This document shows, piece by piece, positions 35,954 through 60,856 of a stretch of DNA of 64,000 nt. The translations under genes were made by a program, and so were the position numbers. How positions within the stretch are numbered: the first letter of the stretch is position 1; each line of letters opens with the position of its first letter. The notes beneath the pieces are model-generated. The model worked only from the letters and a program-made list of their open reading frames with translations, did not search any database and was not told the origin of the DNA. The DNA comes from Candidatus Cloacimonadota bacterium (GTDB taxonomy: Bacteria > Muiribacteriota > UBA6191). The DNA lies in the NCBI GenBank assembly GCA_023954715.1, contig JAGSHD010000008.1, positions 62,001 to 126,000 on the forward strand. Reading direction: 5' to 3'.

Positions 35954-37927
35954 CTATATAGAAGAGTTAAACTCTGACTCGTTTTCGTATCCATGTACCT
36001 TTAGAGTTTCTTGAAAATCTGTAAAGTTAGGACCATGGTCTTCGATACAGATATCTAGTTCTGTAAGTTTATCACTATGCTTCTTTAATAGATCAAAGGA
36101 CTCCCATCTTTCATCAAAAAACCTCACTTTATGAAACAATAATTGAGGATGTTTGATTTCAGCGTAATCAAATACTTTTACTTTTTGATAGGCTAAATTT
36201 ACCTTTACTCGGAGTTCAAGTTTAGGAAGCAGGTCATTATAAAAGTCAGAATACTTCATCAAACTTAATTTACTAGACTCCTTGTGAATCTTAATTAAAT
36301 CAAAGTCTGATATATTACCCAAGAGTCTTTCACAGCATCCAACATAGATCCGTAAAACAGGATGTAACTGATCGTGTTGATCCATACGAACATAAAGTGA
36401 TTTCTCATCTTTAAATCCTATCTCACTTTGAGTACATAAAGTTGAAATAACTTGCGGGTCAGCAACCGAGTACAATAGGCTCAATGCTTGTTGATGAGCG
36501 ACATCATATTCGTCTAAAAAGTACTCAATGTCATTGATAATAGACTCATCAATTTCATCTTTTGGAAGTCTTTGATTAAAGTTAGCCACGGCTAGATAGA
36601 CAAGTAGGTCTTTTCGTTTTATATCATAGGCTTTATCAAAAGATAACTCACCAACCTCTGCCTTATAGATTCGTTGAACCTGCTCAGCTGAGCCTACTTC
36701 TTTGATTGTTTCTTCAAGTTTAGAAAACTCACTTACAAGGGGCGGTCTACCGAGTTGATTAGTAAGAGTTAACAGGTCTTTAAGGTCTTGAGAGTAGTTA
36801 ATCTTAGAAAAGTCATGAGAAAAATTACTAATGGATCGGATACATGCTTTTTTTAAAATATCTTGGTGCATTTCTTTATTTTTTAGAACATAAAAAATTC
36901 CGATCCCAGCAGCAATAACGTAACAAGTGCCTAGGGTGTCTTCAATAAACTGTTTAAAGTCATTTTGAGTATAAAACTTTTTGAAGTTACTATCTTGTGT
37001 AATCACTCCATCTCCATAAGCCTGAAGCCTAGAAGCTGAAGAAGTACTTTGAACATCACAAGAAACCACAAAAATAGACTTACAGTATTTGTAGGCAGTT
37101 TGTAAAGTTTTTGAACGTAAAATAGGGTCTTCGATATTAGAAAGGGTATCCCCTAAGTGGACAATATCAGCCTTTTTTCGCGACCCTTTTGGCTTTGTTT
37201 TAGGATCCCATCCATAAGATTTAAGGCCAAGTATTTGTAAACCTTGTAGATCATATTCATTGCCACAATGATAGTCCATGATGGTAATCTTATCTTGAAT
37301 TAAAGAGTTTTCAAACAGACATAGTAAAGACTTTGAAAAGCCATAGTTTAAAATAGCGTCTCGGTGCTGGTAATTAATTTGTCTAGTACCTGTAGGCTTG
37401 GTATGTTGAGGCTCAGGTAGGAGAGTGATCTCATGTTGGTCAATTTTAATGTTGGCCACACTAACTATTAGATCCCAAACCTTCTGATGTTTTATATGGT
37501 CTAATGCAATATTTATTTTGTGTGACAATAAAGACTCAGTAAATTGAGAGAAGTCTTTAAATAAACTGTTTTTTGGAGATAAAGTTAGCTCTTTTTGCAA
37601 CAAGATAGTAGGGTTTAAGGACTTAGAATAAGATAACTTTTGAACACTTCCGTTTGCTAAATTAATATGAATCGCTTCTAATAATTTTGGTACTGCATGA
37701 TCCTTAAAGTTTTGATACTTTTGAAAACAAATTTTATATTGGTCTAAATGTAGTTTTAACACATTAAAGGATGGATCGACTTTTAACTTATTTTTTAAAG
37801 TGTTAACTAGCTGAGAGCCATTTGATTTCAATTCATCAAAGTCTTGAGCATAGATTAAAATAGCGTCATTAGATTTTTTACCAAATGAAAGGGCTTCGAG
37901 TTCGGTTTTAAAACTTGTAAAGTTCAT
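35954..37927 (-). CDS. DNA phosphorothioation-associated putative methyltransferase (Dnd-related family)
   Basis: 657 residues. The middle third matches the methyltransferase family linked to dnd phosphorothioation loci: SYGWDPKTKPKGSRKKADIV, LGDTLSNIEDPILRSKTLQ, AYGDGVITQDSNFKKFYTQ (303-321) and AAGIGIFYVLKN. The SAM-binding loop is altered: IMDYHCGNEYDLQ (217-228), where the family has DYGCGxGxD, so catalytic competence is doubtful. The N-terminal 170 and C-terminal 290 residues are not recognised. No dnd, dpt or ssp genes are adjacent; the gene stands alone between a protease and the MEMO fusion. It could act with a remote locus or on another substrate. Confidence 0.75.
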   Translation of the reverse strand: MNFTSFKTELEALSFGKKSNDAILIYAQDFDELKSNGSQLVNTLKNKLKVDPSFNVLKLHLDQYKICFQKYQNFKDHAVPKLLEAIHINLANGSVQKLSYSKSLNPTILLQKELTLSPKNSLFKDFSQFTESLLSHKINIALDHIKHQKVWDLIVSVANIKIDQHEITLLPEPQHTKPTGTRQINYQHRDAILNYGFSKSLLCLFENSLIQDKITIMDYHCGNEYDLQGLQILGLKSYGWDPKTKPKGSRKKADIVHLGDTLSNIEDPILRSKTLQTAYKYCKSIFVVSCDVQSTSSASRLQAYGDGVITQDSNFKKFYTQNDFKQFIEDTLGTCYVIAAGIGIFYVLKNKEMHQDILKKACIRSISNFSHDFSKINYSQDLKDLLTLTNQLGRPPLVSEFSKLEETIKEVGSAEQVQRIYKAEVGELSFDKAYDIKRKDLLVYLAVANFNQRLPKDEIDESIINDIEYFLDEYDVAHQQALSLLYSVADPQVISTLCTQSEIGFKDEKSLYVRMDQHDQLHPVLRIYVGCCERLLGNISDFDLIKIHKESSKLSLMKYSDFYNDLLPKLELRVKVNLAYQKVKVFDYAEIKHPQLLFHKVRFFDERWESFDLLKKHSDKLTELDICIEDHGPNFTDFQETLKVHGYENESEFNSSI

Positions 37928-38121
37928 AATATATTTGGGGTTTCCTGTAGTTGTATTATATGATTTGTACGATAACTATGAATCTATAATAGTGCTTTTT
38001 TATTTACTGGATAAAGTGTAGTAACAATTCCAAAAAAAAACTACGTATGCTCAAAATTTAGACTAGTTTTTAAATTTATTTTAGAGCTTAGAGGACTATT
38101 TTTTAATAATAGGGGGGTATC

Positions 38122-39555
38122 ATGTGTAAAAGTCATATAAAATGCTTGTTTATAGTATTTATACTTTGTCCTATGGTCTTTTGTAAGAATAGACCCGCAG
38201 TTTTCGCCAATAAGGGGTGGTATAGTAATCAAGCAGAGGTTTTAAAGTCCCAGCTAACAAAAAATCGAGCCCTAAGTCAAAAGGTTTTTGCTCTAATTTC
38301 TCCCCATGCTGGTTTCATTTATAGTTTAGAGGTGGCTAAAAGTGCGTTTTCACGGGTAGATCCATCGCGAGTTAAAAGAGTTATAATATTAGGACCGAGC
38401 CACTATAAAGCGAGTACAAAAGCTATCTTAAGTGATTTTTACCAATTTGATACTCCCATTGGGCCTATCAACCAAGATTTACAATTAGTACACCAACTTT
38501 TAAAGCATAGTAAGTATTTTAACTTAGACAATGCTACACAAACTAAAGAGCATAGTATAGAGCTACAATTACCTCTGATTAAAACATATTTTCCAGAAGC
38601 AAGTATTGTTTCTATTTTAATTCCCGATCAATCTATTGAGGTTTTAAGCGCATATGCTAAACATATACAAAATGAGATTACCCCTAGTGACTTGGTTTTG
38701 ATTTCAACGGATATGTCACACTACCCCTCTTTAAAGTTGGCAAAAGCAATTGATAAAAGATCTTTTGAAGTACTGAGATCAATGGATGCTAGGTCACTTT
38801 TGAAATATGAACATACAATTCGAAAAAATAAACTAGCCTCCTGTGCATTTTGTGGGATTGCGCCATTGGTTGTTTCTAAGTTAATCTATCCACCAAATCA
38901 ATATGACTTTTCTAAAGTTGCTTATGATACATCTTTCTCAAAATCAGGAGATCTACATCGAGTGGTTGGTTATGGCGGTTTGATCGTAATGAAAAAGTCA
39001 CAATTGAATGAAAAAACAAAGTCAGATCTACTAAAAATAAGTAAATCCACCTTAAATAAGATATATCAAGTAGGTAATGCTCCTGTTTCTTCAGAAATGG
39101 AGATGGATTTGAATCTAAAAGATTTAGGGGCCTTTGTAAGCTTAAAAAATAATCATCGAGTTAGAGGCTGTATCGGGGTGTTTGAAAGTGAGATGAATCT
39201 GGCAAACTTAGTTTCTTATTTGACGGTACAAGCTAGTAAAGATAGTAGATTTGTTTCTAATCCAATAACTAAGTCCGAGTTAGCAAGTTTAGAGATTGAA
39301 ATTTCTGTATTGTCCCCTATCAATGCTATAAGTGACTATAGAGATATAGTTATTGGCAGTGATGGGATAATTGTTGAGTTAGACGGTCAAAGAGCAGTTT
39401 TTTTACCACAAGTTGCTATAGAAAATAACTGGGGTAAAAAGGAGTTTTGGCAATATTTATGTAAAAGTAAATTATCTAAACAAAAAGATGCATATCTTTT
39501 GAAAAGGGCAAAACTCTACAAATTTACAGCAACAGTATTTTCAAGGGATTATTAA
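38122..39555 (+). CDS. MEMO-AMMECR1 fusion (AmmeMemoRadiSam proteins B and A) with signal peptide
   Basis: 477 residues joining two domains usually encoded separately. Residues about 25-290 are the MEMO domain: ISPHAGFIYSLEVA (H62), IILGPSHYKAS (H94), STDMSHY (D197, H200) and CAFCG (C241-C244), the metal-site residues of the family. Residues about 300-477 are AMMECR1, with LGAFVSLKNNHRVRGCIG (RGCIG 348-352). Genomic association links both with a radical SAM enzyme in the AmmeMemoRadiSam system, whose product is unknown; no such partner is next to this gene. The N-terminus (residues 6-21) looks like an export signal or anchor, which is odd for this system. ATG 38122 follows AGGGGGGT. Confidence 0.88.
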   Translation: MCKSHIKCLFIVFILCPMVFCKNRPAVFANKGWYSNQAEVLKSQLTKNRALSQKVFALISPHAGFIYSLEVAKSAFSRVDPSRVKRVIILGPSHYKASTKAILSDFYQFDTPIGPINQDLQLVHQLLKHSKYFNLDNATQTKEHSIELQLPLIKTYFPEASIVSILIPDQSIEVLSAYAKHIQNEITPSDLVLISTDMSHYPSLKLAKAIDKRSFEVLRSMDARSLLKYEHTIRKNKLASCAFCGIAPLVVSKLIYPPNQYDFSKVAYDTSFSKSGDLHRVVGYGGLIVMKKSQLNEKTKSDLLKISKSTLNKIYQVGNAPVSSEMEMDLNLKDLGAFVSLKNNHRVRGCIGVFESEMNLANLVSYLTVQASKDSRFVSNPITKSELASLEIEISVLSPINAISDYRDIVIGSDGIIVELDGQRAVFLPQVAIENNWGKKEFWQYLCKSKLSKQKDAYLLKRAKLYKFTATVFSRDY

Positions 39556-42179: not shown

Positions 42180-42566
42180 ATGAAGATGCAGATAAAAATA
42201 TTATTGTTACTAGGGTCTATATTTGTAGGCTCTTCTTATGCTTCTGGTACAATTGTGATTCCTCCACCTCCAAAACCAAAAGTAGTGTTGGATCAAGCAA
42301 AAATAGATCAGGGTAAGTCATTGTTTTTTAAAACAAATGAAGCGGGAGTTAGCTGTAGTACCTGTCACATTAAAGGTGCTAAAAAAGCCTTTCGACGTAG
42401 AAAACTAGCCCGTAAGCTGAAAAAGATTTCTAAAAATGTTAAAAAATGTGGTCTTACCGAAGGACGAATGGGAGAGCATTTCTATAACCAACTAAACAAA
42501 GAGGATATCGTAGCAATACAGCAGTTTTTGGCTAAAAAATATCGTCTTGAGGATTACTTGAGGTAA
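42180..42566 (+). CDS. small exported monohaem cytochrome c
   Basis: 128 residues with a signal peptide (MKMQIKILLLLGSIFVGSSYA) and a proline-rich spacer (IVIPPPPKPK). There is one haem c motif, CSTCH, at residues 59-63. A Met in EGRMGEHF may be the distal ligand. The core between these is unusually basic (KKAFRRRKLARKLKKISKNVKK), which suggests binding to an acidic partner or surface. The next gene, an outer-membrane barrel, starts four bases downstream of the stop, so they are one operon. It is a periplasmic electron carrier or a small redox subunit. Confidence 0.82.
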   Translation: MKMQIKILLLLGSIFVGSSYASGTIVIPPPPKPKVVLDQAKIDQGKSLFFKTNEAGVSCSTCHIKGAKKAFRRRKLARKLKKISKNVKKCGLTEGRMGEHFYNQLNKEDIVAIQQFLAKKYRLEDYLR

Positions 42567-59503: not shown

Positions 59504-60856
59504 TTAGTACTTACCAGCTCCTGCATCTTGGCCTGTAACGATAGCGATACTTGCGCTTACTCCAAGTCGGTTTGCACCGGCTTCGATCATTGCTTTAGCG
59601 TCTTTGGAGTTTCTTACTCCACCAGATGCTTTAACACCCATATCAGGGCCTACTACTGTTCGCATTAGTTTTACATGCTCGATGGTTGCTCCACCTTTTG
59701 AAAAACCTGTAGATGTTTTAACAAAGTGTGCATTAGCTTCTTTACATAATCTTGAAGCGATGATGATCTCTTCTCTGGTTAGTAAGGCTGTTTCAAGGAT
59801 TACTTTTACTAATGTGCCATTACATGCTTCAACTACTGCACGAACGTCTTCTCTAACGAAATCATAGTCTTTACTCTTTAATGCAGAGATGTTTAAAACC
59901 ATGTCAATTTCACCAGCACCGTTTCGGATTGCTTCTGCTGCTTCAAAACACTTTGTACCTGTTGTAGTTGCTCCTAATGGAAAACCAATTACTGTACATA
60001 CTTTAACGCTAGAGTCTCTTAATAACTCTGCACAAAGGCTTACATAATAGGGATTTACACACACAGAGGCAAATTGATATTGTTTTGCTTCAGCACATAA
60101 CTTTTCGATCTCTTTTTTAGTTGCTTCTGGTTTTAAAAATGTATGATCAATATATCTAGCTAACTCTTTATTATGATTAATTGGAGGTAGAGTAGATAAA
60201 GGTGAGTTCATAGAAACTGGCATATATGCAGTTTTAGGAGACTCTGTGATCTCTTGGTCAAATTGATAACCAAACTTAACAAGCTTTTCAATGATAAGGT
60301 TAAACTCATCCATCATAGCTTGAGGCAGTCTAGGAATTTGATCTAAACTAATCCAAACAGGCTTACCCCACAAAAGAGCTTTTCGTGTAGCTAGAGCTGG
60401 TAGATTATCAGCTTGTAGGTAAGCTAATTTTGATAGTGTATTTAGGGTTGGATTTACCAAATGAAAATGATCATAAACCTCTAGGCCTTGAACCCCCTCA
60501 TCTCCAAATAAATACTCGTAACCAGCAAATGGTCGACTAGCAACATTAGAAAACAAATCTTGAGCATTTTCAGATAAAAGCACTTTTGTTTGGCGATACT
60601 TAGATTTTAGCTCTTTGAATCGTAAAACTGTTTCTTCTTGGAGTTGTGTATTACCACAAACGATAACCATAGACTTAAGTTTACCAGTGTCTCCTGTGTT
60701 TAACGGGACTCTAGGTGTTGGAATGCTATTATAATTTGTAGCACTACTAACCACTGGAGCAGAGCTAGTGCTTGGATTGCTCTGATTACTCGGAACATCA
60801 TAAAGCTTCATTACTTCTCTGGTTACTCTTTCAATTAAGTCATTTTTAGTACTCAT
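59504..60856 (-). CDS. deoC: deoxyribose-phosphate aldolase with N-terminal encapsulation peptide and extra domain
   Basis: 450 residues, about 200 longer than plain DeoC (220-260). Residues 1-19 ([19 protein letters not shown]) form an amphipathic helix of the type that targets cargo into bacterial microcompartments. A Ser/Pro/Asn linker (20-58) follows, then an alpha/beta domain (59-205, [20 protein letters not shown]) that resembles the flavoprotein-like domain of microcompartment proteins. DeoC is at about 228-445: EIDMVLNIS (D318), HFVKTSTGF (Schiff-base K380) and GVKASGGVR (K409), all intact. DeoC splits deoxyribose 5-phosphate into acetaldehyde and glyceraldehyde 3-phosphate. Third gene of the operon lysS-BMC-P-deoC. 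Confidence 0.9.

Follow-up and report, generated by a model that had tools for sequence, protein, structure and literature searches.

The AmmeMemoRadiSam system, whose product is unknown, consists of MEMO, AMMECR1 and a radical SAM enzyme. Archaea and humans alike have conserved versions of MEMO and AMMECR1, whose reaction is unknown as well. The most relevant comparative work is that of Burroughs et al. (2019), reported to deal with the PCAD-Memo superfamily. Searching the open-access literature by family name, we found nothing on the function of these families in bacteria. For human MEMO1, an iron site formed by H49, H81 and C244 has been described, dioxygenase activity was not detected, and the reaction is unknown (PMC11081632).

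The window, by which we mean the whole stretch of 64,000 nucleotides that was analysed, contains a gene that belongs to both the MEMO and the AMMECR1 family and to a branch of exported fusions of the A (AMMECR1) and B (MEMO) components (Table 1). The preliminary description of this DNA had read a complete MEMO domain with its metal-site residues and a complete AMMECR1 domain with RGCIG in one frame, and this is confirmed well beyond chance, both domains scoring above the curated cut-offs. Pfam Memo (PF01875) matches aa 33-287 with 153 bits (cut-off 27) and Pfam AMMECR1 (PF01871) aa 309-473 with 123 bits (cut-off 25); the NCBIfam models AmmeMemoSam_B (TIGR04336, 192 bits, cut-off 26, profile positions 1-270 of 270) and AmmeMemoSam_A (TIGR04335, 112.5 bits, cut-off 99) match over their full lengths. 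An AlphaFold2 model of the mature part, built with an alignment of 85 fusions, has a mean pLDDT of 93.3 and a pTM of 0.75. In Foldseek searches with this model, the first domain matches MEMO1 at an E of about 1e-22 and the second matches three AMMECR1-family structures (1vaj, E 1.5e-15); LigB-type dioxygenases follow.

Table 1. Features of the MEMO-AMMECR1 fusion gene, in window coordinates
Feature	Position	Strand	Basis
Whole gene: MEMO-AMMECR1 fusion with predicted export signal, 477 aa	38122..39555	+	ORF, profile matches
Ribosome-binding site GGGGGG, purine-rich, 4 bases before ATG	38112..38117	+	sequence
Predicted signal of Sec type, aa 1-21; cleavage possible at VFC-KN; without canonical lipobox	38122..38184	+	hydropathy rule; domain model from aa 24
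MEMO domain, aa 24-289 (TIGR04336)	38191..38988	+	Pfam, NCBIfam, Foldseek
H62, equivalent of MEMO1 iron ligand H49	38305..38307	+	alignment
H94, equivalent of MEMO1 iron ligand H81	38401..38403	+	alignment
C244, equivalent of MEMO1 iron ligand C244	38851..38853	+	alignment
AMMECR1 domain, aa 303-473 (TIGR04335)	39028..39540	+	Pfam, NCBIfam, Foldseek
RGCIG signature, aa 348-352	39163..39177	+	sequence, alignment

The gene resembles each of the described systems in part. With AmmeMemoRadiSam (TIGR04335, TIGR04336 and the radical SAM family TIGR04337) it shares the A and B components, and in its relatives the radical SAM gene is an immediate neighbour, but in the window A and B are fused and exported and the radical SAM gene is missing from the genome as assembled. 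Human MEMO1 (PDB 7KQ8, 7L5C, 3BCZ) has the fold of the first half and its His/His/Cys iron site, but is cytosolic, lacks an AMMECR1 domain and is only 24% identical to the window protein in the structural alignment. The AMMECR1 structures PH0010 (1VAJ), MM0484 (1ZQ7) and ST0229 (1WSC) share the fold and the RGCIG loop of the second half, but in these entries the proteins stand alone and carry no signal. LigB-type extradiol dioxygenases such as 2-aminophenol 1,6-dioxygenase (3VSH) and DesB (3WR8) match the MEMO half in overall fold, with E about 1e-7 to 1e-6, and in its two His ligands, whereas the third ligand in the window protein is Cys instead of Glu, which departs from a 2-His-1-carboxylate site.

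The start codon of the fusion is firm, since an in-frame TAG (38110-38112) and the run of G residues precede the ATG. The protein begins with MCKSHIKCLFIVFILCPMVFC-KN, that is, with two Lys followed by an uncharged core of 11 residues. The core of this N-terminus, MCKSHIKCLFIVFILCPMVFCKN, has a mean Kyte-Doolittle value of 3.04, which places it in the top four of 37 window genes under the same scoring. Conserved sequence sets in at aa 24, and therefore about one signal-peptide length lies ahead of the MEMO domain. Residues 18-21, MVFC, were considered as a lipobox and ruled out, because F does not fit at position -1. Combining the hydropathy rule with the evidence from homologues, we infer that the protein is exported through a Sec-type signal. 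The atypical cleavage site, and the positive K22 and R24 after the core, are features that an uncleaved membrane anchor, or translation from M18, would also explain, and either would leave the protein acting on the cytoplasmic side. We regard this as improbable: the only good ribosome-binding site belongs to the first ATG, the Lys before the core gives a charge bias by which the domains should lie outside and the N-terminus stay inside, and most homologous fusions have clear, unrelated signals at the equivalent place, several of them lipoprotein-like. An export signal was also what the preliminary description had seen in the hydrophobic N-terminal segment, and this reading holds up. It had named as the contrary outcome a negative signal prediction together with homologues whose start falls after residue 22. 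The window protein, however, passes the signal rule, and N-terminal signals of their own are borne by most homologues.

We considered and rejected the notion that fusions of this kind are unusual, as they recur commonly across many phyla. A scan of GTDB with the fusion alignment, which may leave out the window organism's own records, gave at least 584 confirmed stretches, and the best 80 of these come from WOR-3, Deltaproteobacteria, Bacteroidota, Omnitrophota, Acidobacteriota, Chloroflexota, Patescibacteria, Elusimicrobia and others. The preliminary description had held that the fusion confirms joint action of MEMO and AMMECR1. The recurrence of the fusion in many phyla speaks for joint action, but "confirms" is too strong a word, because co-occurrence is not biochemistry. 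The scan patterns came from inside the domains, and therefore N-terminal signals were not selected for. Among the matches listed, 58 of 77 classifiable fusions are exported by a fixed rule, and 93 of 312 neighbouring genes pass a similar rule. Five signals escaped the rule, three because of neutral n-regions (L093, L097, L116) and two of Tat type (L113, L162), and were corrected by eye for the pair counts given below; L126, which has the membrane partner described below, and L164, which looks exported by eye, were kept as scored, namely as unexported. Together with the signals that are frequent in the neighbouring radical SAM genes, these numbers give good support to the earlier proposal of a periplasmic step.

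A second, LigB-like type of A-B fusion occurs in the window's phylum (L216:1887-3326, L060:1381-2802, L059:1099-2511, L230:1464-2804), where it adjoins a short radical SAM gene; at L216 and L060 the fusion has a signal-like N-terminus and its radical SAM neighbour is unsignalled. A stand-alone AMMECR1 (L043:1495-2175, minus strand) has a signal-like N-terminus followed by CSSCGNC, and the same genome has a Tat-type radical SAM gene without an exported fusion.

The radical SAM enzymes (TIGR04337) of the window's phylum and of the GTDB loci often carry plain Tat motifs, for example NRRQFLLDLCTIAGAAGIAGLL or MISRRQFLADICTIAGTVGIGGML. Among 118 distinct TIGR04337-type proteins we counted 70 with Tat-like signals, 5 with Sec-like signals and 43 with none; of 312 neighbouring genes, 39 pass the Tat rule. 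When the tree is built from the catalytic domain alone (n=118), export state changes 4 times, as against 35 times in shuffles. TatC is encoded in 20 of 20 GTDB genomes tested that have a Tat-type enzyme, in two of five with a Sec-type enzyme (L094, L099, L115, L145, G009) and in three of five with an unsignalled enzyme (L143, L152, L114, L128, L157). The CxxxCxxC cysteines and an N-terminal Cys cluster are invariant in these partners. Among solved radical SAM structures, pyruvate formate-lyase activating enzyme (3C8F, 3CB8, 8FO0) comes closest to their predicted fold; the partners have in addition the N-terminal Cys cluster, C-terminal Cys pairs, an export signal and, in one branch, a CxxCH motif. 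Our search of the open-access literature turned up no description of such an exported radical SAM enzyme; the signals may have been noticed earlier.

The CxxCH motif lies between signal and enzyme in 11 Tat-type radical SAM proteins, 10 of which share the frame A-P-x-A-x-[FY]-W...CxxCH...H...[VI]xCxxC, and at the equivalent place in none of the 43 enzymes without export signal. The motif may mark a haem c site or a zinc site, the segment being modelled at low confidence (pLDDT about 58-68). Such a CxxCH with a distal His ahead of the radical SAM domain is encoded at L096:1676-2824, L106:4466-5614, L118:1311-2459 and eight more loci.

Fusion and radical SAM enzyme agree in their predicted compartment in 54 of 58 adjacent pairs, with signals corrected by eye. 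By rule alone, the GTDB pairs comprise 31 with both partners exported, 5 with neither, and 4 and 4 mixed (Fisher p 0.01, ignoring kinship); correcting five signals by eye turns these into 36, 5, and 1 and 2. Pairs from other phyla, added after removal of repeats, contributed 13 concordant cases and 1 discordant case, giving 49 pairs with both exported, 5 with neither, and 1 and 3 mixed (Fisher p 7e-5, again ignoring kinship). Put differently, a signal-bearing radical SAM gene stands beside 49 of 52 exported fusions and beside 1 of 6 unexported ones. The exceptions among the exported fusions, with an unsignalled radical SAM neighbour, are L143, L152 and L273; they count against the reading that we favour below. 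A kinship-corrected test yields three usable contrasts, of which about two agree and none disagree, and has no power with so few unexported fusions.

Many loci encode a further candidate member, a protein of about 690-840 aa in which a spermidine-synthase domain is framed by two membrane blocks. Its gene is located directly downstream of the fusion, or between the fusion and the radical SAM gene. Counting only loci flanked by 2.8 kb or more in both directions, we found it at 22 of 37 exported and at 1 of 9 unexported loci. Examples beside exported fusions are L096:4311-6392, L108:7366-9522, L122:4694-6823 and L120:7509-9944, among others; in Bacteroidota the protein has an additional, His-containing N-terminal membrane segment. 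At one locus (L099:7447-8103), a DsbD_2 membrane protein (PF13386, DsbD-like) is encoded directly downstream of the exported fusion, and is a possible electron route across the membrane.

These observations suggest a tentative model, to which we give somewhat less than even odds, in which many phyla possess a complete extracytoplasmic AmmeMemoRadiSam system made up of a Tat-exported radical SAM enzyme, an exported fusion and the membrane spermidine-synthase-like protein, the window gene being the MEMO/AMMECR1 half of such a system whose radical part was lost or replaced. To our knowledge there is no earlier case of radical SAM chemistry outside the cytoplasm, so this would be the first. Going by their signals, the relatives would run that chemistry beyond the membrane, where we know of no source of SAM or of low-potential electrons; the missing source of both is the strongest argument against the model. 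For the five radical SAM enzymes with Sec-type signals, the cluster would in addition have to be assembled outside, and it is hard to see how. The Tat pathway transports folded, cofactor-loaded proteins, and SAM and reductant are cytoplasmic. The radical chemistry of the relatives might accordingly take place inside, with the loaded enzyme exported later or the signal serving merely as an anchor, and with nothing radical happening outside. We consider this a serious alternative, if a doubtful one. Against it, the fusion partner, with its Sec signals, would be unfolded inside, and the CxxCH of the 11 Tat-type enzymes, if it binds haem c, receives its haem only beyond the cytoplasm.

The window organism itself does not fit a complete system. 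Its genome assembly (4.58 Mb, 86% complete) was searched by profiles and yields one MEMO and one AMMECR1 match, both of them the window fusion. TIGR04337 has no match in this assembly, with control matches in 8 of 14 genomes, and a profile built from 52 radical SAM sequences finds nothing in it even at E<=1. The genome does encode TatC. Both genes flanking the fusion are unrelated to it and on the opposite strand, so that the fusion is not part of an operon and has no signal-bearing radical SAM gene beside it. Proteins of the window genome that match PF01564 were considered as the membrane partner and rejected, as they lack the C-terminal membrane block and are located elsewhere. The close relatives G001-G003 have none of TIGR04337, MEMO and AMMECR1. 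A complete AmmeMemoRadiSam system in this organism is not supported, and the genome search for the radical SAM gene that the preliminary description had proposed came back empty with both profiles. On present data, the fusion is a divergent orphan that is not part of a complete system.

Since 14% of the assembly is missing, the remaining genes of the system could in principle reside there, the more so as radical SAM gene and fusion are often, not always, adjacent and can be up to several kb apart. This is very unlikely in our view. Genomes of the same genus and family, up to 95% complete, are also without TIGR04337, MEMO and AMMECR1, and the radical SAM gene of relatives is usually within a few kb of the fusion, whereas here none lies on the same contig, in the 62 kb on the left or in the further sequence on the right.

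The divergence of the copy raises the question of whether it still works. On a tree of 143 fusions its branch, the longest, measures 1.66 against a median of 0.33 and is the only end branch flagged as long; no relative exceeds 35% identity to it. Of 54 columns with a conservation of 93% or more, it has changed 9, more than any other fusion but one. Taken with the absent radical SAM partner, the nearest kin devoid of MEMO or AMMECR1 genes and the lack of an operon, these figures would suit a decaying gene, either transferred in or left over after loss of the system, whose exported product has little or no activity. We think this unlikely: all 477 codons form an unbroken frame, D197, H200, the RGCIG loop (RGC.G in the alignment) and every metal ligand are retained, and the modelled fold is of high confidence. 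Because the metal-site residues are kept, the window fusion most likely still performs only the MEMO/AMMECR1 step.

Altogether, we favour, at a probability of roughly 0.55, the reading that the gene encodes an exported fusion of MEMO and AMMECR1, active beyond the cytoplasmic membrane and an orphan in the window organism. The drift in 9 of the 54 conserved columns argues against it, as the window copy may be losing function. In the proposed mechanism, the N-terminal segment would send the fusion through Sec. The MEMO half, of LigB-like fold, would bind iron by two His and one Cys, as judged from human MEMO1, and the AMMECR1 half would bring its conserved RGC[IV]G loop to that same substrate or product. 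Most bacteria with the exported fusion encode as its partner a radical SAM enzyme, of the pyruvate-formate-lyase-activase type, that has a Tat or Sec signal of its own, and often the membrane spermidine-synthase-like protein as well. Together, these partners would constitute an AmmeMemoRadiSam system outside the cytoplasm, which would make or alter a compound or protein located in the envelope. In one branch, haem c could be bound by the CxxCH and distal His and pass electrons to the radical SAM cluster, and the membrane spermidine-synthase-like protein could be the source or the consumer of a compound derived from SAM at the membrane. In the window organism, with the partners missing from the assembly, the fusion would persist as a fast-evolving orphan. 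An exported version of MEMO and AMMECR1 ties both to the cell envelope or to another extracytoplasmic substrate, and so narrows the search for the product. It also predicts a radical SAM enzyme outside the cytoplasm; if true, chemistry thought to be confined to the cell interior may run beyond the cell membrane.

Three other genes of the window deserve mention. The upstream, divergent neighbour of the fusion (35954-37927, minus strand) encodes a DNA phosphorothioation-associated putative methyltransferase (TIGR04096, 384 bits); by eye, no Dnd genes were recognised nearby. At 59504-60856 (minus strand), a protein resembling deoxyribose-phosphate aldolase has a long N-terminal extension reminiscent of a microcompartment targeting segment, and at 42180-42566 (plus strand) a small signal-bearing protein with one CxxCH (CSTCH) looks like a mono-haem cytochrome; both are impressions gained from the sequence alone.
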